Below, piece by piece: positions 1 to 18,878 of a stretch of DNA of 64,000 nt. Each line of letters starts with the position of its first letter. Positions within the stretch are counted from its first letter, which is position 1. A program made the translations under genes and the position numbers. The notes beneath the pieces were generated by a model. It was not told the DNA's origin and ran no database searches. It was given only the letters and a program-made list of their open reading frames with translations. The stretch is from NCBI RefSeq assembly GCF_004310395.1, contig NZ_BFAX01000002.1, forward strand, positions 124,001 to 188,000, read 5' to 3'. The stretch is from Methanofervidicoccus abyssi (lineage in GTDB: Archaea; AGJL01; Methanococci; Methanococcales; Methanococcaceae).

Positions 1-253
1 TTTTTCGCATTATAACATAGGGTATATCTGTATATAAAGAAAGTGTAGTTGCTAAGGGTATGCCCATAGCCTCTGCTGTGACGATCTTATCCACATCTTC
101 AAAATCACAGACTTCTATAATACAAGTCGCCACCTCCCTAAGTATATGAGGATCTACAAGAGGTATACCGTCTGATATTGGATGTACGAAGTAATGATAA
201 TCACCCCTCTTTATAACGGGAGAAGATTTCAACGTCTCTATCAACATTTTCAT
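1..253 (-). CDS. hpt: Hypoxanthine/guanine phosphoribosyltransferase, partial (3' end outside window)
   Basis: N-terminal part (about 84 residues) of an archaeal purine phosphoribosyltransferase, a cytosolic salvage enzyme joining hypoxanthine or guanine to PRPP. The N-terminus carries the archaeal Hpt signature ETLKSSP, then KRGDY and [10 protein letters not shown]; the chain leaves the window after IPYVIMRK, before the PRPP loop. The start is ATG at 253; a second ATG at 247 is equally possible because the AGAGGT-like ribosome binding site serves both. It begins only five bases after the stop of the Mrp-type ATPase, so the two are probably cotranscribed. The family call is by recognition of the conserved N-terminus. 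Confidence 0.85.
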
Positions 254-258
254 ATTTT

Positions 259-1113
259 TTACCTCTCTACCTTTTTAACGATCCTTTCAACTATCTTTTT
301 AAACTCTTTGGAAGCCGGACAGTCCAGGAGTACCATAGGTACCCCTCTATCTGATGCCTCCCTTGCCTTTATATCTAATGGTATTCTCCCTAAAAAGTCT
401 ATACCTAACTCCTTAGCTGCCTTCTCTCCTCCCCCCCTTCCAAATATATCCACTATTTTTTTGCAGTAAGGACATACAAACCCTGCCATATTTTCTATTA
501 ACCCCAATATTGGGATATTCAACATCTTAGCCATACCTACAGATCTCTTTGCATCTAAGAGGGCAACTTCCTCAGGTGTTGTAACTATAATTACCCCATC
601 GATATCAGGAATGGATTGCATTATAGTAAGTTGAACATCTCCAGTCCCTGGAGGTGTATCTATAAGTAGATAATCCAGATCCCCCCATACTACATCACTT
701 AGGAACTGTCTAATTGCACCACTTATCTTAGGACCTCTCCAGATCACGGGAGTATCCTTATTTGGTAAGAAGTAACTTATAGAGACAACCTTTATCCCTT
801 CAGGTGTTATAATGGGATATATACCATTCTCATCTGCGTAGGGTTGAACGTCTTCTACACCTAACATCTTAGGAATATTTGGACCATGTATATCTCCGTC
901 TAAGATACCTACCTTTTTCCCCATGGAGTTCAATGCAGTGGCTAAATTTACAGTTACAGTGGATTTCCCAACACCTCCTTTACCACTTAATACTCCTATC
1001 TTGTACTTTATTTTACTCATGTTTTTCCTTATTTTTTCATCCTGTATCTCCAATATTCTCCTGCTACAACTATCTCTTGATGGACATGTGTCATGTTTTC
1101 CATCACATTCCAC
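259..1113 (-). CDS. Mrp/Nbp35-family iron-sulfur cluster carrier ATPase
   Basis: Cytosolic P-loop ATPase of the Mrp/ApbC/Nbp35 family, thought to carry and transfer Fe-S clusters. It has a Cys-rich N-terminus ([11 protein letters not shown]), a deviant Walker [11 protein letters not shown] at about residues 43-52, a DTPPGTGD switch motif and a C-terminal CPYC pair that in this family bridges a cluster in the dimer. The GTG at 1113 is preferred because GAGGTGGT sits just upstream; an ATG at 1131 is in frame but has no ribosome binding site. Length matches the Methanocaldococcus homologue. It is followed by hpt after five bases. Confidence 0.9.
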
Positions 1114-1200
1114 TTTAACCACCTCTTTCATTTCTGTAACAACATCTAATTACTTCAGTTAATTCTTGTAATATAACTATCTTTATCATTATTAACTTAA

Positions 1201-2460
1201 TTAACTTAAAATTATTCTCCCCTCTATCATTAAAGAAGGAGATATCAACCTTCCCCTCTGAGATACATCATCCATAGGTATGGCATCTTTAAGTATTTCA
1301 AATATATTTCCAGATAACATCCCTTTCTTTACAGGTATCCGCTCTCCATCCTTAACTATATAACTATTGGATATCTCAACTGAGAAATCTCCAGTTATAG
1401 GGTTAGATGTGTGACATCCAATAAGTTCATTTACATGCAAGTATTCGTTATAGTTGTCCAACATGTCTACAGGAGTTATTATTATATTGGAAGGGGACAC
1501 GGTAGGTAAAGTGTCGTAATCCCTAACACCATGTCCAGTAGATTCCCTATTTTCTTTATTTGCCCTTTTTATATCGTAGAGATACCCTTTTAAAATCCCA
1601 TTCTCCACTAAAACTGTCCTCCGACGAGGAGTGCCTTCTCCATCTACCTTACTGGAGTATAACCCTCCATCTAAGGTACCATCATCCACTATAGTAATAT
1701 GTTCCCCCATTACTTTTTCTCCAATTTTGTCTCTCAGGATAGACCTATTTCTCTGGACATTCTCGGCACTGAAGGAAGGTAGTAAGGTATAGGTTAGTAG
1801 GGAGTTTAGCACCCTTGGTGTTAGGAGTATCTTACCTTTATATGGGATCTTGATACTTTTAGGTAGTGATAGAAGATCTTTAACATATTCTCCCAGTTCT
1901 TCCACGTTGAATCTATAGGTTCTACTTAGGTAATCGTAGGCCGTTTCACCATCCTTTATCCCAGAGATTGAAGCTGAGTAGTATGTAAATTCTTCCTCAA
2001 CATCTAAACCTTTAGAGTTTATCACCCTAGTATATAGATAGGAACTCTCTACAGAACCTCCAGTAACTGTGATACCTCCTTCAAGGAGTATGTCTCTCAT
2101 AGTTTTGAGATCTTCCAGGAGATCTTCCTCATCTATATTTAAAATCTCTCTATGGAAGAGACCTTTGGGATTTGGGATACCTCCTTTAGGTTCTGGGATA
2201 GATGAGTATTTATCAAATACAAGGTTCTCCATAGCCCTGTAGATTACCTCTTCTCCTTCTTCTGTGGAGTAGGCAAATCCAACTTTGCCCTCCTTCAACA
2301 CTCTTACACCTATCCCAAAACTTCTATCCTCCTGGAAAGAGTCTAAACTGTCTCCATCTAATTCGCAGTTTAAATTTTCAGATCTTGAAATAAAAATATC
2401 TACCTCAAAACCTTCTTTTTCCCCTATTTTTAATATCTTATCTATGAAATACTCCTCCAA
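1201..2460 (-). CDS. TldE/PmbA-like metalloprotease-family protein
   Basis: Member of the TldD/PmbA (peptidase U62) family. The C-terminal half shows family patterns (GTPRRRTVLVENG, TGDFSVEISNSYIVKDGE, KKGMLSGN) but no HExxxH zinc motif, so this is the non-catalytic TldE/PmbA type that normally works with a TldD protease; no tldD lies in the window. Bacterial TldDE processes peptides such as microcin; the archaeal substrate is unknown. The TTG at 2460 is preferred because AAAGGTGGTG precedes it at normal distance; in-frame GTG codons at 2469 and 2466 lie inside that ribosome binding site. Confidence 0.85.
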   Translation of the reverse strand: MEEYFIDKILKIGEKEGFEVDIFISRSENLNCELDGDSLDSFQEDRSFGIGVRVLKEGKVGFAYSTEEGEEVIYRAMENLVFDKYSSIPEPKGGIPNPKGLFHREILNIDEEDLLEDLKTMRDILLEGGITVTGGSVESSYLYTRVINSKGLDVEEEFTYYSASISGIKDGETAYDYLSRTYRFNVEELGEYVKDLLSLPKSIKIPYKGKILLTPRVLNSLLTYTLLPSFSAENVQRNRSILRDKIGEKVMGEHITIVDDGTLDGGLYSSKVDGEGTPRRRTVLVENGILKGYLYDIKRANKENRESTGHGVRDYDTLPTVSPSNIIITPVDMLDNYNEYLHVNELIGCHTSNPITGDFSVEISNSYIVKDGERIPVKKGMLSGNIFEILKDAIPMDDVSQRGRLISPSLMIEGRIILS

Positions 2461-2596
2461 TAACACCACCTTTAATAGTTAATCTCTAATAATTATTCTT
2501 TAACTAAAATATAATATAGCTATAAAAAACTTTCTTGAAAATATCCATAAGTTCTTGGAAAGGGCTAAATTCCTATGGTGGTAGAATCCTATGCTC

Positions 2597-3163
2597 CTAA
2601 GAAAGGGAACTATGGGATTTCTTAGTTCTTCCAGTATTTAGAAGCGTTTCCTGGAAATATATCCCATCATGTCCAGTGATTATATGTTTCCCTAAGGATT
2701 TAATCCTCCTCAACGTATTAAGAGCCAACTCCCTATCAACATTTATTCCCGGTGCAACCTCCTTAATTATATTATCCTTCAAAGGGGCGGCGTCTCCAAC
2801 TACTATGTAATCTCCATATACAACAGATATACTGTCCCATGTATGTCCAGGTGTCTCTAGGATTTCTATCTCCTTATCCTTCAGAGACCTGTAGTTCTTA
2901 TAGTTAATAACTTCTGCACTTTTGAATAGGTCGTTATTTTCTATATGATCCCAGTGTCTGTGAGTATTTATCACTATGTCTATATCCCTAGGAGACATAT
3001 TTAATTTTTCTAAACCTTTTATTATTACATCCCTTTTATCCCTAGAAGATGTATCTACTACTATACAGTATCTCTCTGTTTTGATAAGAGTTACAGAAGA
3101 AGATGCTTCCAATATTCTACTATCTGCTCTTACTAGTTTACCCTCGTAGAGCAACTTTAACAT
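2597..3163 (-). CDS. Metallo-beta-lactamase fold hydrolase
   Basis: Cytosolic 188-residue metallo-hydrolase of the MBL superfamily (MBLAC1/glyoxalase II-like branch). Metal ligands are visible in order: THRHWDH at 67-73, the GHT histidine at 107, the VVGD aspartate at 124 and the TGHD histidine at 165, so the dinuclear site is probably intact. The substrate cannot be inferred. It is isolated, with AT-rich spacers on both sides and purT divergent upstream. The tail after residue 175 is short and polar. Confidence 0.8.
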   Translation of the reverse strand: MLKLLYEGKLVRADSRILEASSSVTLIKTERYCIVVDTSSRDKRDVIIKGLEKLNMSPRDIDIVINTHRHWDHIENNDLFKSAEVINYKNYRSLKDKEIEILETPGHTWDSISVVYGDYIVVGDAAPLKDNIIKEVAPGINVDRELALNTLRRIKSLGKHIITGHDGIYFQETLLNTGRTKKSHSSLS

Positions 3164-3292
3164 CCTATCACTGAGATTGTTTTATATAATCGTAAAATAA
3201 TTATTATAAAAATGATAATAAAAAATAAAGGAGTTAAAAATAATTTTCCCATATAAGATTTTAACTTTTTAAATAATAATAATGGTGAAATC

Positions 3293-4465
3293 GTGAGAGT
3301 AGGTACTCCTCTATTCTCAAATGCAACCAAGATACTGTTACTAGGTGGAGGGGAGTTAGGAAAAGAAATTGTTATAGAAGGACAGAGGTTAGGTTTAGAG
3401 TGTGTTGTTGTAGATAGGTATCAGCATGCACCCGCAATGCAGGTTGCCCATAGAAGTTATGTAGTAGATATGAAGGACGGAAATAGTCTAAGGGCTATAA
3501 TCGAGAGAGAGACTCCAGATTACATCATTCCAGAAATAGAAGCTATAGATACAGAAGTCCTTGTAGAGATGGAGGAGTTTGGATATAAAGTAGTTCCCAA
3601 TGCCGATGCAACGAGGATAACGATGAACAGGGAGTATATACGTAGATTAGCATCTGAAAAACTTAAGTTTAAAACTGCAGATTACAGATTTGCAGAATCC
3701 TTGGAGGAGTTAAAGGAGGCTGTAAATGAACTGGGGACTCCATGTGTTGTTAAACCTATTATGTCTTCTTCGGGAAAGGGGCAGAGTATAATAAGAAATA
3801 AAGAAGATATTGAGAGAGCCTGGAAGCACGCCCAGGTTTCTGCAAGGGGTGTAGGTTCTAAGGTAATAGTTGAAGAGTTTATAGATTTCGACTACGAGAT
3901 AACGCTTTTAACTGCAAAAACTGAAGATGGTATAAAGTTCTGTCCCCCTATAGGTCATATACAGATAGATGGAGATTATCATGAGAGTTGGCAACCTCAT
4001 CCTATGGGAGAGAAAACCTTAAAGGAAGCCCAGAGAATAGCCTACGAGATCGTTAGCATGTTAGGTGGCAGGGGAATATATGGAGTGGAACTCTTTATTA
4101 GAGGAGATGAGATTATATTCAGTGAGGTTTCTCCAAGGCCCCATGATACAGGCATGGTAACTATGATAACCCAGAATATGAGCCAATTTGAAATACACCT
4201 CAGGTGTCTCTTGGGATTACCTGTAGATGTGGAGATGGTAGTAACTGCAGGGGCCAGTCACGTTATTAAGTCCAACATAGATAAGTGGGCTCCCCAGTAC
4301 GATGTAAGTGATGCTCTAAAGGTTCCAAATACGAAGTTAAGATTATTTGGTAAACCTGTGGCAAGGGTTGGAAGGAGAATGGGTGTTGCACTGGCATACG
4401 GTGAGAGTATAGAGGTTGCAAGAGAGAGAGCTAAGAGATGTGCCCATGCTGTTAAGGTATTTTAA
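3293..4465 (+). CDS. purT: Formate-dependent phosphoribosylglycinamide formyltransferase
   Basis: ATP-grasp enzyme of purine synthesis that formylates GAR with formate and ATP (step 3), avoiding folate. The N-terminal preATP-grasp region ([13 protein letters not shown]), central ATP-grasp ([12 protein letters not shown]) and C-terminal [13 protein letters not shown] are all typical of PurT, and 390 residues is full family length. Methanogens lacking 10-formyl-THF are expected to use this form. The start is GTG at 3293, preceded by GGTGAAA. No operon partner; purC-purS lie 55 kb away. Confidence 0.95.
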
Positions 4466-4606
4466 AAAAAATTTTTTAATAATTATTTTTATCAAGGCTT
4501 TTTCGAAAGTTGTTATTTAGTAGTTTTGTTGTTTGTTTATGACCATACTATAAAAAAATACTAAGATTTTTTTAATGGAAGCCAGAGTACAAAATTAATA
4601 AAACAC

Positions 4607-5755
4607 TTACCTCAGTTCCAGTACTTTCTTCTTTTCAGCCTCGGCACAGGACAAACAGAGTAGACACATTACACAGTATCCCTTCAAGGGTATCTTTCCC
4701 TTCGTTAATTTCAAAGTTTTCATTGGACAAACTTTTACACAGTTACCACATTTTATACATAGGTAGGGACTGTACTCTATTCTGTTGTACTCTTTTCCTC
4801 CATGGTTTATCTTGCCTAATTTTAACGCTCCACTTGGACATGCGACAGTACATGCTCCACAAACTATACACATCTTCACAGTTTTAGTTTTCTTATCTAC
4901 TACAATTGCATCAGTTGGACACACCTTAGCACACTTCTCCAGTATATCGTAATCTTCCTCAATGATCACCAAACCTTCCTCTGTAATTGGATGTGCTGAT
5001 TCAAACTTTACCTCCAAGGTAATGGCATCTACGGGACAGGCCTTTGCACATAACTTACATGCTGGACAGGCCTTTGGAACTTCCACTATATTTTTTTCCC
5101 TATTGTATTTTATCATATCTCCTGGACATATCTCGACACATACTGTACATCCTATACATTTACTCTCATCTACTTCAAATTTCAATATCTCTTTTCTCCT
5201 CTTCTTTGGTATTCTACCAGAGACATAGATGGCATTCCATGGACAAGTTTGGGCACATATAGAACAATATATACACTTATCTTTGTCGACAACAGCCTTA
5301 CCATTTTCTATTTTTATAGCCTCTACAGGACATACTGGAATACAAATCTCACAACCCACACAATCGTCAGTAACTACTATTGGCTCATTAGGTATTTTAA
5401 CCTCTTTTTTAGGTTTTTCAACTACCCCAGGTATGGAGATAATCTCTATTGGACATGTATCAACACATCTTTTGCATAAAATACAGTGCCCCTTTGAATA
5501 AGGATATCTATCATCAACCTTTTTTATCTTCGTTGGACATGCCTCTGCACAATCTCCACACTTTATACACTTTGAAGGATTGTAAGATATGGCACCATTA
5601 GACTCGTAGAGCGCTCCAGTTGGACATGCCTTAACACAGTTCATACATAGGATACAGGTTTTAAAGGGTGCTATCTCTATGGCTTCTGTAGGACAGACAG
5701 CGGTACAAGCGTTACATACTAAACAGAGATCCTCCTGAATTTTTATTCCCCCCAT
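4607..5755 (-). CDS. vhuB: Polyferredoxin of the F420-non-reducing hydrogenase (VhuB/MvhB type)
   Basis: 382-residue polyferredoxin built from tandem bacterial-type ferredoxin repeats. Ten complete CxxCxxCxxxCP motifs are visible. One repeat near residue 275 keeps only CAKVCP, and the last ([10 protein letters not shown]) is unconventional, so about eleven or twelve [4Fe-4S] clusters are plausible, as in the family. It is the last gene of the hdrA-vhuDGAUB operon and probably accepts electrons from the hydrogenase. The spacer between it and vhuU holds the vhuU SECIS hairpin. ATG start. Confidence 0.92.
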
Positions 5756-5927
5756 AGTATCTCCTATACTCTTTACTCTTTAAATTTTAATCAAATAATA
5801 AATAATCAAATAATAAGCATACTTGTAAACTTGTAATATTAATTGATATACTTTATAAAAATAATTTAATGGCTTATTAGAATATCTGATAGTCATTGAA
5901 CAACATGAAGAATAAAGAACAACAACT

Positions 5928-5969
5928 GTTTCCTACAACCTCCCCCAAGGGGTTCGGTATGTAGGAAAC
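5928..5969 (-). promoter_or_regulatory. SECIS element of vhuU
   Basis: Perfect 10-bp stem (arms 5960-5969 and 5928-5937) enclosing the archaeal SECIS pattern: a GAA bulge, CCCC-TT-GGGG apical stem and an opposed GA. Archaeal SECIS elements normally sit in the 3'UTR. Here the first stem base is the G of the vhuU TAG stop codon, so the element abuts the reading frame, about 75 nt from the Sec UGA. Confidence 0.88.
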
Positions 5970-6106
5970 TATTCCTCCTTCTTTATCTCAAATACTAACT
6001 CCTTCTTTTCATTCATAACTATTACATGGGCAGCACATGAGTATCAGGGATCGTAGGCCCTCAGGACAACCTCCAAGAGGTTTAACTTTTTTTCATCGAT
6101 CTCCAT
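5969..6106 (-). CDS. vhuU: F420-non-reducing hydrogenase selenopolypeptide VhuU (45 aa, Sec21)
   Basis: Tiny selenoprotein carrying the C-terminal part of the NiFe hydrogenase large subunit. It reads MEIDEKKLNLLEVVLRAYDP, then UGA (6044-6046, Sec21), then YSCAAHVIV; this is the DPCxxCAAH nickel-ligand motif with the first Cys replaced by Sec. Translation ends at TAG 5969-5971. In most organisms this segment is fused to the large subunit; a separate VhuU is a known Methanococcales feature. Processing after the His of CAAH would be expected. It lies 15 nt downstream of vhuA. In a standard-code reading it would be missed. Confidence 0.93.
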
Positions 6107-6121
6107 ATTTTACCACCTTAA

Positions 6122-7381
6122 TTACTTTTTGAATACTTCTATTGCAGCTTGTTGGATGGCCTTCTCCATTGTAGGTACGTTATGTGTTGATGCCACTATC
6201 ATATTTGCCTTTATAACGATTCCGTTCTCATCTGTTTCATAGTGATGTATTAAAACACCTCTTGGAGCTTCTACAACACCAACTCCACTACCTGCTTTCG
6301 GTTCTACCTCTGCTCTTATATCTGTAGATGTGATCTCGTTATCTTCCAATAACTCCTTAATTCTCTCACATGATGCAAGTATTTCTATAAGTCTCGCATG
6401 ATGGTAGGCTAAGGATTGATTGGCGGGACTTCCAAACATGTCTATAAATTCCTTTCTGGCCTCTTCAGCCAAAGGTGTAGGGATACTATCACATACATTC
6501 ATCATTGCCAGAGGTCCAACTCTATAGATTCCCTCTGGGTATCCTACCTTTTTGTAGTATGGGTATTTTACATAACTATGTGATACAATGTGTTCTCCTA
6601 TGTAATCCTGATATTCAGAGAATGGAAATTCTACCTTCTCACTACCATCTGGAGATAGAAACCTTAAGACTCCATCGTAGAAGGAGTGTTTTCCATCTTT
6701 GACTATTCCAAGATACCAAGTATCAATTACTCCCAGGGACTTTACCATATTTATATACTGCTCATTTAGTGATTTGATCAACTCTACACCTTCCTTGGCG
6801 TACTCTATCATGGTGTCGATTTCCTTTAGGAATGCATCCCTACTTTCTTCACTTAGAGTTGTAGATATACCTCCTGGGATACCTGTAACTGGATGTATAG
6901 GTTTCCCTCCAACTTTTTCTACTATACTCTGGCCAAATTTTCTCAATGCTATAGCCTTTTTAGCTACCTCTGGAGATTTTTCTATAATTCCTACAATGTT
7001 TCTAACCTTGGGATCTGCATCTGGGCCTAGTATAAAATCTGGTGCTGCCAGATAGTAGAAATGTAGTGCATGACTGTGGATCATGTTTCCTAGTAACATC
7101 AATTCTCTAAGTTTCTTTGCAGTATCTGGTATCTCAACATCCCAGGCAGCATCAACTGCCTTAACACTTGCTAAGTGGTGAGGTGTCTGACATATCCCAC
7201 AAATCCTAGGTACGATCCTAGGCACTTCTTCAGCAGGTCTTCCTACTACAAACTGTTCAAATCCTCTTATTGCAGTTATATGTAATTTAACATCAACTGG
7301 TTTTCCAGACTCATCTAGGATAATGGTGACTTTACCATGTCCTTCAAGACGACTTAGAGGTTCTATAGTGATCTTGCCCAT
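6122..7381 (-). CDS. vhuA: F420-non-reducing hydrogenase large subunit VhuA
   Basis: NiFe hydrogenase large subunit (419 aa) that oxidises H2 and feeds electrons through VhuG and VhuD to heterodisulfide reductase. The N-terminal nickel ligands are in RICGIC (Cys61, Cys64) after the RLEGHG motif at 11-16. The C-terminal nickel motif is absent because it is encoded separately by vhuU immediately downstream. ATG start; 15 nt separates its start from the vhuG stop. The selenium-dependent vhu rather than the cysteine vhc isoenzyme is inferred from the VhuU Sec codon. Confidence 0.95.
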   Translation of the reverse strand: MGKITIEPLSRLEGHGKVTIILDESGKPVDVKLHITAIRGFEQFVVGRPAEEVPRIVPRICGICQTPHHLASVKAVDAAWDVEIPDTAKKLRELMLLGNMIHSHALHFYYLAAPDFILGPDADPKVRNIVGIIEKSPEVAKKAIALRKFGQSIVEKVGGKPIHPVTGIPGGISTTLSEESRDAFLKEIDTMIEYAKEGVELIKSLNEQYINMVKSLGVIDTWYLGIVKDGKHSFYDGVLRFLSPDGSEKVEFPFSEYQDYIGEHIVSHSYVKYPYYKKVGYPEGIYRVGPLAMMNVCDSIPTPLAEEARKEFIDMFGSPANQSLAYHHARLIEILASCERIKELLEDNEITSTDIRAEVEPKAGSGVGVVEAPRGVLIHHYETDENGIVIKANMIVASTHNVPTMEKAIQQAAIEVFKK

Positions 7382-7396
7382 GTTATGTCACCATCT

Positions 7397-8263
7397 TTAC
7401 TTGTGGATCTTCTTAGGTATTAATGCTGCAGCCATGGAGAACCTGTAGAACAGCCCTAACTTGTCGGGGAGTTTCAGAGCTGCATCACCTGTAACTGCAT
7501 AGGCATTTGCAGCTGCAGCCCCCTGATCAAGGACAGCATCTGTTTTTCCATAGCATCCTCTACAGGGAACATTTACAGATGGGCATTTTGCCCCACATCC
7601 TGCCCTTGTAGCCATTCCTAAACATGGATAGCCTTGTTCAAAGAGACACTTTTTGCTATCTGGTATACCTTCAAAGGTTCTCTTAAATTCCTTAGGATAG
7701 GTACCTTCCTTTACCCTTGGACATTCATCACAAACTATCTTCATAGATATCTTAGGTTTCTTTCCCTCCAACAGTGCTGTTATTAACTCTAGGTTATGTT
7801 CAGGTTTTGGAGGACATCCTGGTAGTATAAGATCTACATCTATAAAGTGGGAGACTGGATATACCCTATCAAGTAGTTTTGGGATATCTTCTCCTGGTAC
7901 CTCTCCAGGGTTATCTACGGTATCTGTGGAAAATACCTCTTTAAGTAGTTCCTCAGTGGGATACAGGTTACCTAAGGCTGGTATTCCTCCGTAGGCTGCA
8001 CAGGTCCCCCATGCTACAACAACCTTCGACCTCTCTCTAATCTCTTCTAGGAGATGTTTATCATGTTCGTTTCTAATACCTCCCTCTATCAGGAATAAGT
8101 CTATACCTTCTGGTATCTCTTTTATATCTGCCACTATAGGTCCAAATAGGATCTCTACGTTTGGAAATACCTCGAGAAGTTGCTCGTGGAGGTCTAACAG
8201 GGACATATGACAACCAGAACATCCACATAGTTGGATCATACCTAACTTCGCCTTATTTCCCAT
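7397..8263 (-). CDS. vhuG: F420-non-reducing hydrogenase small subunit VhuG
   Basis: 288-residue Fe-S small subunit of the NiFe hydrogenase. Proximal cluster ligands start in LCGCSGCH (Cys13-Cys18), with further family cysteines in WGTCAAYGG, LPGCPPKPEHN and the C-terminal GCGAKCPSVNVPCRGCYG block. It relays electrons from VhuA to VhuD. The ATG follows GGGTGATTGG at normal spacing. No twin-arginine signal is present, consistent with a cytoplasmic enzyme complexed with Hdr. Confidence 0.95.
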   Translation of the reverse strand: MGNKAKLGMIQLCGCSGCHMSLLDLHEQLLEVFPNVEILFGPIVADIKEIPEGIDLFLIEGGIRNEHDKHLLEEIRERSKVVVAWGTCAAYGGIPALGNLYPTEELLKEVFSTDTVDNPGEVPGEDIPKLLDRVYPVSHFIDVDLILPGCPPKPEHNLELITALLEGKKPKISMKIVCDECPRVKEGTYPKEFKRTFEGIPDSKKCLFEQGYPCLGMATRAGCGAKCPSVNVPCRGCYGKTDAVLDQGAAAANAYAVTGDAALKLPDKLGLFYRFSMAAALIPKKIHK

Positions 8264-8305
8264 CCAATCACCCTGTTAAAGTAGTAATTAGATACCAACT
8301 ACTAG

Positions 8306-8327
8306 CCACCTCCTGCTTAGGAGGCGG
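8306..8327 (-). other. Second 3'UTR hairpin behind the vhuD SECIS
   Basis: An 8-bp GC-rich hairpin (arms 8306-8313 and 8320-8327, 6-nt loop, one G-T pair) lies three bases beyond the vhuD SECIS and 42 bases before vhuG. It has no GAA/A internal loop, so it is not itself a canonical SECIS. It could be a processing site or an mRNA stabiliser in the operon; the function is unknown. Confidence 0.5.
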
Positions 8328-8330
8328 TCC

Positions 8331-8360
8331 TTCCGTAGGTCCTCTCGGTTCCCTACGGAA
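8331..8360 (-). promoter_or_regulatory. SECIS element of vhuD
   Basis: 9-bp perfect stem (TTCCGTAGG with CCTACGGAA) closing on GAA-CC-GAGA-GG-A, the archaeal SECIS consensus. It lies 20 nt after the vhuD stop codon and must serve two UGA codons located about 240 and 390 nt upstream. Confidence 0.88.
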
Positions 8361-8380
8361 TTCATCCCTTTTTAACTAAC

Positions 8381-8794
8381 TTACCTGCACTGGCCCTTTA
8401 AAGGATTAGGCCCCAACCTGTTTATCCTCTCAGTCATGGTATTAACAGCCTCCACGAACTTGGCAGCATCTGCCGCGCTCATGAGGAATATATCTATCCT
8501 ATCTCCCCCTATCCCCAGTTCCTCCAGTATTTCCTTTGTAAGTTTTACCCTATCCATCGCCCTGAAGTTCCCACTTTCATAGACACACTCATTAGGTTTT
8601 CACCCAACAACCATGACTCCATCAGCGCCCTTTTGGAAGGCTCTTAAGGCGTAGGATATATCAAATCTGCCAGTGCAGGGTATTCTTATAATTCTAACAT
8701 ATGCAGGATACTGCATCTTACTAGTTCCAGCGAGATCTGCAGCTCCATATCCTCATTGATAACATGCAAATGCTATTATAACTGGAGTGTCCAT
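8381..8794 (-). CDS. vhuD: Hydrogenase/heterodisulfide reductase linker subunit VhuD with two selenocysteines (137 aa)
   Basis: Small iron-sulfur protein linking the hydrogenase to HdrA in the electron-bifurcating complex (MvhD family). Reading through two UGA codons gives one continuous chain: MDTPVIIAFACYQ-Sec14-GYGAADLAG and VMVVG-Sec65-KPNEC. Both positions are cysteine cluster ligands in non-selenium MvhD. The UGA codons are at 8753-8755 and 8600-8602. The ATG at 8794 follows GGTGAAAAG, and the TAA is at 8381-8383. Two Sec residues are known for Methanococcales VhuD. A standard-code reading breaks it into fragments. A local 6-bp hairpin (8701-8716) lies 36 nt after the first UGA. Confidence 0.93.
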
Positions 8795-8859
8795 CTTTTC
8801 ACCTTAAAAAAATGATGTGGTTATAAAGTGTAATAAAATGGACCACTTAGCCCCAATCA

Positions 8860-8890
8860 GCCCCATCCTGGCAGCGCCTTCGGATGGGAC
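8860..8890 (-). promoter_or_regulatory. SECIS element of hdrA
   Basis: Stem TCCCATCC with GGATGGGG (arms 8882-8889 and 8861-8868, one terminal wobble) closing on GAA-GGC-GCT-GCC-A, which matches the archaeal SECIS pattern. It lies 57 nt after the hdrA stop. Immediately upstream is the 22-nt segment complementary to the region just after the hdrA UGA. Confidence 0.87.
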
Positions 8891-8909
8891 TTCATCTTTT
8901 TTATCTCTC

Positions 8910-8931
8910 TAGCAAACCACCCTAACGTTGA
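8910..8931 (-). promoter_or_regulatory. 3'UTR segment complementary to hdrA coding region after the Sec codon
   Basis: These 22 bases are the exact reverse complement of 10287-10308 inside hdrA. In the transcript the segment starts 17 nt after the stop and ends 19 nt before the SECIS stem. Pairing would fold the SECIS back to within tens of nucleotides of the UGA at 10334-10336. That the repeat exists is seen directly; the pairing is inferred. Confidence 0.8.
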
Positions 8932-8947
8932 TTTATTGGCTGTCCCC

Positions 8948-10924
8948 CTATTGATTCAACATATTATGGGTATCTAAGATTCCATCTATTGCAGATATAA
9001 CCTGTTCATCTCTGTAGTACCTCAACTGCAGGGCCCCACTTGGACAGGTAGCACAGCAAGAACCACAGCCTTTACATGCAATGTCATTTACTTCAGCCAC
9101 TTTATGTCCATCAACTTCCTTATAGGAGATTGCATTGTATGGACATACTTGGGCACAGATCTCACATCCTCCACAGATCTCCTTATTTACTATTGCTCTT
9201 ATCATCTCTATCTCGAACTTACCCTTTGCCATCGGTATTGCCACGGCACTAGCTGCACCTTTAGCCTGGGCTACTGTATCTGGGATATCCTTAGGACCTT
9301 GGGCCACTCCTGCTATAGCTATACCATCTACCTTGGTGTTAACTGGTGCCAACTTTGGATGTAGTTCCTTGAAGAATCCATCTGGACTGATATCCAATCC
9401 TAACATCTTTGCTACGTTCTTAGTGTCTGGTCTTGGTACAAGTCCAGCAGATAGTACCACGAGATCAGCTTCTATCTCTACTATCTCCCCCATCAATGTA
9501 TCCTCTACTCGAACTGTGAGGTTCTTTGTCTCTGGATCTTCAATAACACAGGCTGGTCTTCCCCTTATGAACTTAACCCCGAACTGTTCCTGAGCTCTCT
9601 GGTAATACTCTTCGTATCCCTTTCCAAAGGATCTTATATCCATGTAGCAAATGTAAACCTCTGCATCTGGCTCGTGCATCTTTATCAGTTGCGCATTCTT
9701 CAGGGCGAACATGCAGCAAATCCTTGAACAGTATGGATTGCCAACCTTCAGATCCCTGGAACCTACACACTGTATAAATACTACTCTGTGTGGGTGCTCT
9801 CCATCACTTGGCCTTATTACATGCCCTCCTGTGGGCCCTGCAGGGTTGATCATCCTCTCCAATTCTAAGGTGGTTATCACGTTGTCGTAAACTCCATACC
9901 CATATTCCTCTTTTAGGGATGCATCGAACTCGTTGAACCCTGTAGCCACAATTATTGTACCAACCTTTAACTTGATCTCCTCTGGTTTCTGGTTGAAATC
10001 TATTGCTCCTGGTCCACAGACACTTTCACACAGCCTACAGTCGATACAGTACTCCTTATCTATTGTATATATCAGGGGGACAGCCTGGGCAAATGGTACG
10101 TATATAGCCTTCCTGGTACCTATTCCTAAGTCAAATTCGTTAGGTACTTCGATAGGACATACTTTGGCACAGGCTCCACATCCTGTACACTTGGACTCAT
10201 CTACGTACCTTGGTTTTTTCTCTATGGTTACTTCGAAGTTACCGATGTATCCAGAGACGTTCTTTATCTCTGCGTAGGTGATTATTTCAACGTTAGGGTG
10301 GTTTGCTACTGTAACCATCTTAGGTGCCAAAATTCAAAGAGCACAATCATCTGTTGGGAATGTCTTGGCCAATTGGGCCATTCTACCTCCAATAGATGTT
10401 TCCTTCTCTACAATATACACCTTATATCCTTGATCCCCTAAATCTAGGGCAGCCTGAATTCCTGCAATACCTCCTCCAATGATAAGACAAGATCTATCTA
10501 CTTCCACAACCTTCTGAGGTACATCTTCCAACCTTTTAGCCCTCTCCACACCACCTGCAACTAATTCCATCGCTTTCTTTGTAGCTGCCTCTCTATCTCC
10601 TAAATGGACGAAAGAATCTTGTTCTCTGATATTTACGAACTCCAGATAGTAAGGAGAAAGCCCTGCTTCAGCGATACAGGCTCTAAAGGTAGGCTCGTGG
10701 ATCTTAGGAGTACATGCTGCAACAACCACTCTGTTTAACTTGTATTCTTTAATTGCATTTTTAATCATTTTCTGTCCCGGATCGGAACAGTAGAAGGGAT
10801 ATGTATTTGCATACACTACTCCATCAAGCTTTGAGGCGAACTCCTTCACCGCCTCACAATCTACAACGCCGTTAATATTGGCACCACAGTAGCAGATAAA
10901 AACCCCTATCCTGGGGCTTTCCAT
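8948..10924 (-). CDS. hdrA: Heterodisulfide reductase subunit A, selenoprotein (658 aa, Sec197)
   Basis: Flavin- and Fe-S-containing subunit that bifurcates electrons from the hydrogenase between ferredoxin and CoM-S-S-CoB. Visible are the N-terminal FICYCG region, a Rossmann GGGIAG at 150-155 for FAD, TDDCAL-Sec197-ILAPKM, two ferredoxin motifs at about 246-257 and 293-303, and two C-terminal motifs ([24 protein letters not shown]). The in-frame UGA is at 10334-10336; cysteine occupies this place in non-selenium HdrA. The ATG is preceded by GGAGGTGAATCT. It is first in the operon with vhuDGAUB. hdrB and hdrC are not in the window. It would appear split in a standard-code reading. Confidence 0.95.
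10287..10308 (-). promoter_or_regulatory. Coding segment complementary to the hdrA 3'UTR
   Basis: 22 bases in hdrA that encode VANHPNVE, starting 25 nt after the Sec UGA. They are exactly complementary to 3'UTR bases 8910-8931. At this distance a duplex would sit just ahead of a ribosome whose A site holds the UGA. Confidence 0.8.
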
Positions 10925-11602
10925 AGATTCACCTCCAAAAGTTAAATAATAACGAAAATATTATTATATATTAAAGTATTATAAAAATATATTGTTTAAC
11001 GCATTTAATAAGTTTTATTAGATATGCTATTAATCAATTTACTATTTTGAATCATTAATTACATTAGATTGACATTATAAAACCATTAAACATTCCAAAA
11101 TATTTCTATAAACACCGGATACAAAGATATTAAGGAATCCCTGCTGTAATATCAACAGTTGTATGAGAATATTCAGAATATTATTTTCTTAATCTTCTCC
11201 CTTTAAAATCTTGTATTTGGGTTTATTATTTTTTTATTTTTTAAAACCTTTTCTTATTTTTTGTAATTGTTATAATCCTTACATTTTCATCATCATTATT
11301 AAACCAAGAACATAATTTTTAAAGTATAAAAATAATAACTAAGAAAAAAATAGAAAAAGATAGGAAGAGATTTAACAGGAATTTCACGTACTTTTCCACT
11401 ATATCATATAATCTGGGGAATAAGAACTTATTTTGCTTTTTTTATTTTTATATTCATTGTCTTATTTTTCTTTAATTATCTTTTTATTATTTTTTATAAT
11501 AATTTTTATTATATGTTATTTTAAACTATCACTTTGATAGCGAGTGGGTTTATTATATTATTATTGAAATAACACTATCCTCATATTTCATCAAAAAAAA
11601 AA
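10925..11602. other. Long AT-rich spacer with hdrA promoter candidate and repeat copy
   Basis: There is no gene in 678 bases. On the minus strand a TATA-like AATATATAAT near 10960-10970 is a promoter candidate for hdrA. Bases 11111-11260 resemble 14259-14395 (a shared tract containing ATATCAACAGTTG followed by TTGTATTTG and T-rich runs) and form part of a degenerate repeat family. The rest is A/T homopolymer-rich. Confidence 0.6.
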
Positions 11603-12478
<876 letters not shown>

Positions 12479-12629
12479 TTATACTTTATAATAACTAAAT
12501 AAGAACCTCAGGTGATTATAGACTTTACAGAGATACTGTATATATGAAAGAACATTTAAAACTTTACTCCTGATCTCACTTGAAAACAGGTGAAAAAGAA
12601 ACTTAGGTTGAGCACCTTATCATTGATAA

Positions 12630-17486: not shown

Positions 17487-18794
17487 TTGGTTGAGATAGT
17501 AAAAAATGTTGTATGTCCCTTCTGTGGCTGTCTCTGTGACGATATCGAAATTATGATAGAGGATGGCCACATCGTGGGGACAAGAAATGCCTGTAGAATA
17601 GGCCATGCAAAGTTTATGCACTTTGAAGGATCTGTAAGATATACGGAACCTATGATAAGGGAAAATAAAAAGGATAATTTCAAAAAAACAGACTACGATA
17701 CTGCAATTGAAGAGTCTGCAAGATTACTGGTAGAATCAAAACTCCCATTATTGTACGGATTCTCCTCTATAAGTTGTGAAGCACAGCGTGAAGCAATATT
17801 AATAGGGGAGAAAATTGGAGCTATCGTAGATAATACAGCAACTGTTTGACATGGACCTTCTCTCCTGGCAGTGCAGGATGTAGGATACCCTGTTTGTACC
17901 CTTGGAGAGATTAAAAACAGAGCTGATTTAGTAATATTCTGGGGATGCAATCCAATGCATGCCCATCCAAGGCATATGGGTAGATACTCAGTATTTGCAA
18001 GGGGATTCTTCAGGGAGAGGGGAAGGAGAGATAGGACAATAGTAGTGGTAGATCCAAGAAAAACACATACTGCAAAGTTAGCAGATCTCCACCTACAGGT
18101 AGAGCCTAACAAGGACTACGAGTTGATAAGTGCCATGAGAGCTGTCGTCAAGGGACACGAGTTAAATGTAGACAAGGTTGCAGGGATACCAGTTGATATT
18201 ATCTATGAAACGGTAGAGGCCTGTAAAAAGGCTCAGTTTGGTCAGTTATTCTTTGGTATGGGAGTAACAATGAGTAGAGGTAAACATAGGATTATAGACA
18301 ATGCCATCTGTCTGGTTATAGATTTAAACGCCTACACAAAATTTGGACTGATGCCAATGAGAGGACACTACAACGTAAATGGATTCAACCAGGTAATGTC
18401 TTGGTTAACAGGGTATCCTTATGCAGTGGATTTCAGTAGAGGTTACCCAAGGTACAACCCAGGAGAGACAAGTACAGTCGATCTCTTAGTTAGAGGAGAA
18501 GTTGACGTAATGATGAATATTGCATCAGATCCAGGGGCACACTTCCCACAGAAGGCAGTAGAACATATGGCCAAGATACCTTTAATATGTATAGAGCCTC
18601 ATCAAACACCTACAACTGAACTGTCTAACATTATAATACCAACTGCCTTTACAGGAGTTGAAATTGGAGGAGTTGCATATAGAATGGACGGAGTCCCATT
18701 AGAGCTTAAGAAGGTTATAGATCCTCCAGAAGGGGTTCTTACAGATGAAGAAGTCTTCAAGATCATGAGCAAGAAGATAAATGAGATGTTGTAA
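17487..18794 (+). CDS. fwdB: Formylmethanofuran dehydrogenase subunit B, selenoprotein (435 aa, Sec121)
   Basis: Catalytic subunit reducing CO2 on methanofuran with a tungsten or molybdenum pterin cofactor, the first step of methanogenesis. The N-terminal cluster motif is [10 protein letters not shown] (from Cys10). NTATV-Sec121-HGPSLLAV places the metal-ligand Sec at UGA 17847-17849; other forms have Cys. The C-terminal half reads [11 protein letters not shown] and EPHQTPTTE as in the molybdopterin oxidoreductase fold. The TTG at 17487 is preferred because GGGGTGATCCC precedes it; an in-frame GTG at 17478 lies inside that site. Other fwd subunits are not adjacent. A standard-code reading splits it at the UGA. 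Confidence 0.94.
17873..17890 (+). promoter_or_regulatory. Coding segment complementary to the fwdB 3'UTR
   Basis: GCAGGATGTAGGATACCC, inside the codons for VQDVGYP, begins 23 nt after the Sec UGA and is exactly complementary to 18809-18826 in the 3'UTR. Same geometry as in hdrA. Confidence 0.8.
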
Positions 18795-18808: not shown

Positions 18809-18826
18809 GGGTATCCTACATCCTGC
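18809..18826 (+). promoter_or_regulatory. fwdB 3'UTR segment complementary to coding region after the Sec codon
   Basis: GGGTATCCTACATCCTGC starts 14 nt after the TAA stop and ends 17 nt before the SECIS stem. It is the perfect reverse complement of 17873-17890. Pairing would bring the SECIS next to the UGA, 995 nt away in linear sequence. Confidence 0.8.
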
Positions 18827-18843
18827 GGAGATGTTATCTAAGT

Positions 18844-18878
18844 GTTTGAAGGGGAACCCTTATGGGGACCCTTCAAAC
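18844..18878 (+). promoter_or_regulatory. SECIS element of fwdB
   Basis: 10-bp perfect stem GTTTGAAGGG with CCCTTCAAAC closing on GAA-CCC-TTAT-GGG-GA, an excellent match to the archaeal SECIS pattern. It lies 49 nt after the fwdB stop. Confidence 0.9.

Follow-up and report, generated by a model that had tools for sequence, protein, structure and literature searches.

Selenoprotein genes of Methanococcales carry covarying complementary arms that probably tether the SECIS to a distant selenocysteine codon

The DNA analysed here (the window) is a 64,000-nucleotide stretch of the Methanofervidicoccus abyssi contig NZ_BFAX01000002.1, positions 124,001 to 188,000. Among its genes are hdrA and fwdB, both with an in-frame selenocysteine (Sec) UGA codon and a SECIS past the stop codon, and vhuD, whose nearer UGA provided a control. 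The relevant features are as follows.

10334-10336, minus strand: Sec UGA codon of hdrA; at least 31 genomes of the order keep the in-frame TGA, and paralogues carry Cys there
10287-10308, minus strand: hdrA coding arm, +26 to +47 after the UGA, complementary to 8910-8931 at 22 of 22 positions
8948-8950, minus strand: hdrA stop codon, TAG
8910-8931, minus strand: hdrA 3'UTR arm, nucleotides 17 to 38 past the stop, 18 nt ahead of the SECIS
8859-8891, minus strand: hdrA SECIS stem with GAA_A bulge (structure scan; same element in relatives)
10074-10085, minus strand: second hdrA coding arm, GGCTGTCCCCCT, about +249 to +260, complement of 8938-8949
8938-8949, minus strand: second hdrA 3' arm, overlapping the TAG stop codon
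8331-8360, minus strand: vhuD SECIS (structure scan), nearer-UGA control without an arm
17847-17849, plus strand: Sec UGA codon of fwdB
17872-17890, plus strand: fwdB coding arm, +23 to +41 after the UGA
18809-18827, plus strand: fwdB 3'UTR arm, UTR nucleotides 15 to 33, 16 nt ahead of the SECIS
18844-18878, plus strand: fwdB SECIS (structure scan)

An earlier sequence-only reading of the window had reported the perfect complementarity of the first hdrA arm pair, the placement of the coding arm 25 nt past the UGA and that of the 3'UTR arm 17 nt past the stop. All three were reproduced, while the gap between arm and SECIS, given there as 19 nt, proved to be one nucleotide shorter. A repeat search of window positions 1-12600 recovered the arms as a 22-nt pair separated by 1355 nt; of the 25 longest pairs, no other was 100% complementary. 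The duplex was predicted to pair with a probability of 0.96-0.99 from 37 to 80 °C. The hdrA SECIS stem is lengthened by outer AUGA/UGAU flanks. The second helix, of 12 bp, was absent from the earlier reading; it lies outside the first in nested order and is common to loci L009, L010 and L011. Other genera possess extra hdrA helices at +150 to +155 and +230 to +250 in its place.

The claim that fwdB shares the hdrA design also held, its duplex comprising 18 Watson-Crick pairs and one U-G pair. Both SECIS elements conform to the archaeal (euryarchaeal) type, with a GAA_A internal bulge set between two stems, adjacent G-C pairs and a position in the UTR of a UGA-containing gene. Rfam returned no match in the window at gathering thresholds and thus holds no usable SECIS model there. 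To gauge chance, each of the 72 open frames of at least 120 codons in the window was scored for ungapped complementarity against its own 160 nt downstream. The top scores belonged to hdrA (54.0) and fwdB (46.5), followed by a third frame at 30.5 and a median of 23.5; shuffled-UTR maxima of approximately 21-22 +/- 2 fell far below the arm scores. The likeness of hdrA and fwdB is thus very unlikely to be a product of chance, in agreement with the earlier reading. In the vhuD gene of the window (8380-8790, minus strand), an in-frame UGA occurs twice, at a spacing of 51 codons, with one SECIS for both; a second GC-rich hairpin (CCGCCTCC...GGAGGTGG) comes after this SECIS.

The search for arms across Sec-encoding genes that the earlier reading had called for was performed in 36 Methanococcales genomes from five genera. 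Two of the genus groups, g2 and g4, appear to be Methanococcus and Methanotorris, respectively. Loci of hdrA, fwdB, selD and fdhA were gathered together with fwuB and Cys paralogues. Four Sec families were found in which the UTR just ahead of the SECIS complements coding sequence past the UGA, with strong arms at 17 hdrA, 20 fwdB, 7 fwuB and 15 selD loci and uninterrupted runs of up to 29 pairs. The coding arm begins at +26 to +36 in hdrA (excepting one weak arm at +51, L031), +22 to +27 in fwdB, +28 to +32 in fwuB and +7 to +11 in selD; fwdB has an additional nested helix at +107. The selD UTR arm often reaches back over the stop and the final codons of the gene. At L099, L100, L111, L118, L124 and other selD loci, the 3' arm lies over these codons such that both partners are partly coding.

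In 16 of 24 fdhA loci, arms in the 5'UTR pair at +26, +27 or +30, in agreement with the published description. Pairing of the 3' flank of the SECIS with the interval between UGA and arm, as occurs in fdhA, was not convincing in most loci. At hdrA loci L016 and L018 alone, a weak 9-bp complement joins this flank to coding sequence near +5, and would constitute a second, fdhA-like arm.

Arms were confined to a particular class of gene. None was found past the Cys codon of 25 paralogues (13 hdrA-Cys and 12 fwdB-Cys genes), in fruA (19 loci) or vhuU (the window and 8 further records), in both of which the UGA lies 72-75 nt from the stop, or in vhuD, where it lies about 365-370 nt before the stop and a second UGA is often present. 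Thus, arms accompany a SECIS that is approximately 1 kb or more away or, as in fdhA, on the opposite side of the gene. This distribution bears on two further explanations. Pairing might protect the message or shape its 3' end, and long duplexes do alter mRNA levels: complementary flanks reduced bla mRNA about threefold (main text of PMC11881835). A general stability element does not account for the lack of such arms in Cys paralogues and other open frames of the window, or for a coding partner tied to the UGA, and we consider this explanation improbable. Alternatively, the 3'UTR arm could form part of a small antisense RNA regulating hdrA in trans, a role that a 22-nt perfect antisense stretch would fit. 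Against this stand the fixed spacing to the SECIS, the recurrence in four Sec families and the absence from Cys paralogues, which leave a trans-acting RNA more improbable still.

The sequence-only reading had proposed a general tether for selenoprotein genes with a distant UGA. Its recurrence with covariation and its absence from Cys and nearer-UGA genes support this, with qualifications. However, the selD gene of the window genome has its SECIS directly past the stop with the UGA about 990 nt away and no arm, and some hyperthermophilic hdrA and fwdB genes lack both an arm and a normal SECIS. Across the genus of the window, the selD SECIS lies a few nucleotides past the stop in most genomes, again without an arm. 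Armless hdrA homologues, named in the same reading as evidence that would count against it, occur in a few species, mostly those in which the hdrA SECIS is truncated. Five Methanocaldococcus hdrA genes (L015, L027, L028, L030 and L032) carry no arm. Their 3' hairpin is cut down to AUGA-stem-(U/A)GAU and the GAA_A bulge is missing. In the four of these five loci that were scanned, the vhuD SECIS lies 493-570 nt past the hdrA stop and may be shared by the two genes; sharing of a SECIS has been reported for Asgard hdrA/frhD (PMC11227280). Similarly, neither arm nor SECIS was found in the fwdB 3'UTR of three genomes (G003, G009 and G013). At fwdB loci L058, L062 and L066, a UGA is present but the 3'UTR holds no SECIS, and the closest SECIS to that of L058 and L062 lies about 1.65 kb upstream and probably belongs to vhuU. 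A search for 5' arms in the armless hdrA and fwdB genes returned none. Loss of the arm coincides with loss of the SECIS, a pattern that would be predicted for an arm acting in the service of the SECIS.

Covariation between the arms, a second check suggested by the earlier reading, was borne out in selD, fwdB and hdrA. The set comprised only loci with an arm, the register being fixed by the arm itself, and hence losses are undercounted. For selD, 93.5% of 294 cells were paired, and both sides had changed in 7 pairs (equalled in 3 of 500 shuffles; 0-1 in slid registers); the covariation score was 0.254 against 0.099 +/- 0.014 for shuffled and 0.006-0.069 for slid registers. In fwdB, 90.9% of cells were paired with both-side changes in 5 pairs (0 of 500 shuffles), and the score was 0.141 against 0.070 +/- 0.010 (slid 0.020-0.049). 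At fwdB position +30, U-A, A-U, G-C and C-G all occur with zero exceptions. Pairing in hdrA was 75.4%, measured across a fixed window that exceeds most helices in width; it fell to 68.9% when UTR arms were swapped between species, and none of 2000 permutations attained the higher value. On a tree of the three proteins, parsimony identified double substitutions that replaced one standard pair with a different one, 9 in selD, 6 in fwdB and 2 in hdrA, giving at least 17 pair-swapping events; broken pairs occurred mostly in genomes G023 and G033.

The two arms have therefore changed in step, and the case that the duplex is under selection comes close to proof. Template switching can generate perfect inverted copies, and could in principle have produced the arms as a mutational by-product (an inverted duplication); chance and assembly error are the other trivial origins. 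Compensatory changes recur between independent lineages and between assemblies of differing origin, and shuffled scores never came near the real ones. This leaves these origins with a negligible probability; covariation across genera rules them out.

The geometry of the arms was also constrained. Between arm and SECIS, the gap was 18.7 +/- 1.6 nt (16-23) in hdrA and 14.0 +/- 2.9 nt in fwdB, whilst the distance from stop to arm ranged widely (57 +/- 39 nt, 17-136, in hdrA; 53 +/- 30 nt in fwdB). A steady gap alongside a variable stop-to-arm distance indicates that the position of the arm is set by the SECIS at one end of the pairing and by the UGA at the other. We defined the effective UGA-SECIS distance as the unpaired nucleotides past the UGA plus the arm-SECIS gap. 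This came to 49 +/- 5 nt for hdrA, 37 +/- 4 for fwdB, 53 +/- 11 for fwuB and 40 +/- 23 for selD, the last including two loci at 88 and 102. Linear distances of 984-1566 nt would thereby contract, if the arms are paired, to mostly 25-55 nt. In the window the values are 43 nt for hdrA and 38 nt for fwdB, which fits a placement near +43 of the kind described by Peiter et al.; the effective distance given for fdhA1 in the main text of that study is 43 nt (PMC11881835).

The main rival to a tether is a roadblock, or anti-termination, function, whereby a duplex past the UGA slows the ribosome and allows Sec-tRNA to outcompete the release factor, with the closeness of the SECIS being incidental. Roadblock structures are usually spaced 5-9 nt from the codon on which they act. 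In every case the duplex lies shortly 3' of the UGA, and that of selD, at +7 to +11, is close enough for contact with the ribosome; its spacing leaves room for such a contribution. However, the duplexes of hdrA, fwdB, fwuB and fdhA start 22-36 nt away, beyond the usual range. A local hairpin would also suffice to slow the ribosome, yet the partner adjoins the SECIS at the fixed gap seen in hdrA, and genes with a nearer UGA have no arm. We therefore regard a roadblock as an unlikely basis for the arms.

Arm strength was related to growth temperature using 16S GC content as a proxy. At a 16S GC of at least 0.588, every genome for which data exist carries one or more arms; below 0.58, none has a strong arm in the tabulated genes. 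Spearman coefficients with 16S GC were 0.75 for selD, 0.48 for hdrA and 0.32 for fwdB (not significant), all confounded with phylogeny. Within the genus of the window, the low-GC members G022 and G029 lack a strong arm in the genes tabulated for them, G022 having a borderline 11-bp fwuB-type arm (L160). Methanococcus hdrA and fwdB arms span 9-11 bp overall: fwdB of three genomes (L063-L065) has 11 bp at +30, and hdrA (L033, L035 and L174) has 10-11 bp at +57/+58. Predicted duplex energies lay between -36 and -57 kcal/mol at 37 °C and weakened to between -12 and -20 at 85 °C. In folds of the whole UGA-to-SECIS interval at 80 °C, the arms were paired with a probability of 0.86-0.97, and the duplexes are thus predicted to be stable across 65-80 °C.

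Taken together, these observations make it likely that the arms form a cis-acting, long-range RNA tether linking the SECIS to the distant Sec UGA, the selenoprotein mRNA of heat-loving methanogens probably folding back to carry its SECIS to the ribosome. The 3'UTR segment directly upstream of the SECIS would pair with coding sequence soon past the UGA and close a loop of 0.9-1.4 kb, which the extra nested helices of hdrA and fwdB would render compact. The SECIS, any factor bound to it and the Sec-tRNA elongation factor would consequently lie at the short effective distance calculated above. With the UGA positioned in the A site, the hdrA, fwdB or fwuB duplex, starting 22-36 nt downstream (save for the weak hdrA arm at +51), would sit just outside the ribosome; that of selD would begin at +7 to +11. 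Once Sec has been inserted, the elongating ribosome would melt the duplex, which may re-form behind it in readiness for the next ribosome. We infer that the duplex forms on translated mRNA in vivo and that, by bringing the SECIS effectively closer to the UGA, it improves Sec insertion; re-formation between ribosomes is likewise presumed.

Reporter data from mesophiles advise caution against calling the tether essential. A Methanococcus maripaludis reporter was recoded at 520-679 nt from the SECIS without a designed tether (PMC9622424), which counts against it, and complementary flanks in a mesophile reporter caused no significant change in activity, with an approximately 2-fold effect appearing only after mRNA normalisation (main text of PMC11881835). 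The weakness of this effect may reflect the short arms and a reporter only 520-679 nt from the SECIS. A broader reading, to which we lean by a small measure, is that archaeal Sec insertion is limited by a working distance of approximately 400-1000 nt, which Methanococcales bypass through a gene-independent, temperature-tuned fold-back from the 5' or 3' side; auxiliary helices would be nested with it, and compensatory evolution within coding sequence would maintain it in five families.

The repositioning idea itself is not new. Peiter et al. (2025; PMC11881835, main text) reported that the 5'UTR SECIS of fdhA1 in Methanococcales is bordered by complementary flanks and proposed that they reposition the SECIS; these flanks lengthen in thermophiles. 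The arms described here likewise join SECIS-adjoining sequence to the open reading frame shortly 3' of the UGA, and are likewise longer in thermophiles, as judged by 16S GC and the short Methanococcus arms, a trend confounded with phylogeny. They differ in that the SECIS of hdrA, fwdB, fwuB and selD lies 3' of the stop, and in that one arm, on the 5' side of the SECIS, pairs together with nested helices, whereas both flanks pair in fdhA1. The main text of that study, as distinct from its supplements, describes fdhA1 alone, leaves hdrA unmentioned and describes no 3'UTR arm. Our literature search likewise turned up no account of arms in the 3'UTR, of hdrA, fwdB or selD arms, or of covariation. 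The fdhA1 precedent is therefore extended by the 3' placement, by four further families, by covariation and negative controls, and by a distance rule.

Two other recoding systems invite comparison. In eukaryotes, the SRE is a stem-loop just downstream of the Sec UGA, for example in SELENON, that assists recoding. It resembles the tether as an RNA structure immediately 3' of the UGA, but is a local hairpin with no 3'UTR partner and tethers nothing. The tombusvirus PRTE-DRTE interaction (PMC3234231) similarly pairs a structure at a recoded stop with a 3' element over kilobases (about 3.5 kb) and promotes recoding. It is nevertheless an unrelated viral system in which a eukaryotic ribosome performs readthrough without Sec or SECIS, and its partner is a 3'-terminal viral replication element rather than the neighbour of a SECIS in cellular methanogenesis genes.

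According to the main text of PMC11881835, no protein that binds the SECIS is known from Archaea, and a selected RNA tether offers a concrete answer to how SECIS and ribosome make contact over more than 1 kb in long genes. The short Methanococcus arms lend themselves to genetic experiments in M. maripaludis, and the result specifies exact mutations for such a tractable host. The arm signature could aid the finding of SECIS elements and selenoprotein genes, and the tether could guide the design of selenoprotein expression in thermophiles. For the Methanococcales themselves, these genes illustrate clearly how coding sequence and a 3'UTR can evolve together.
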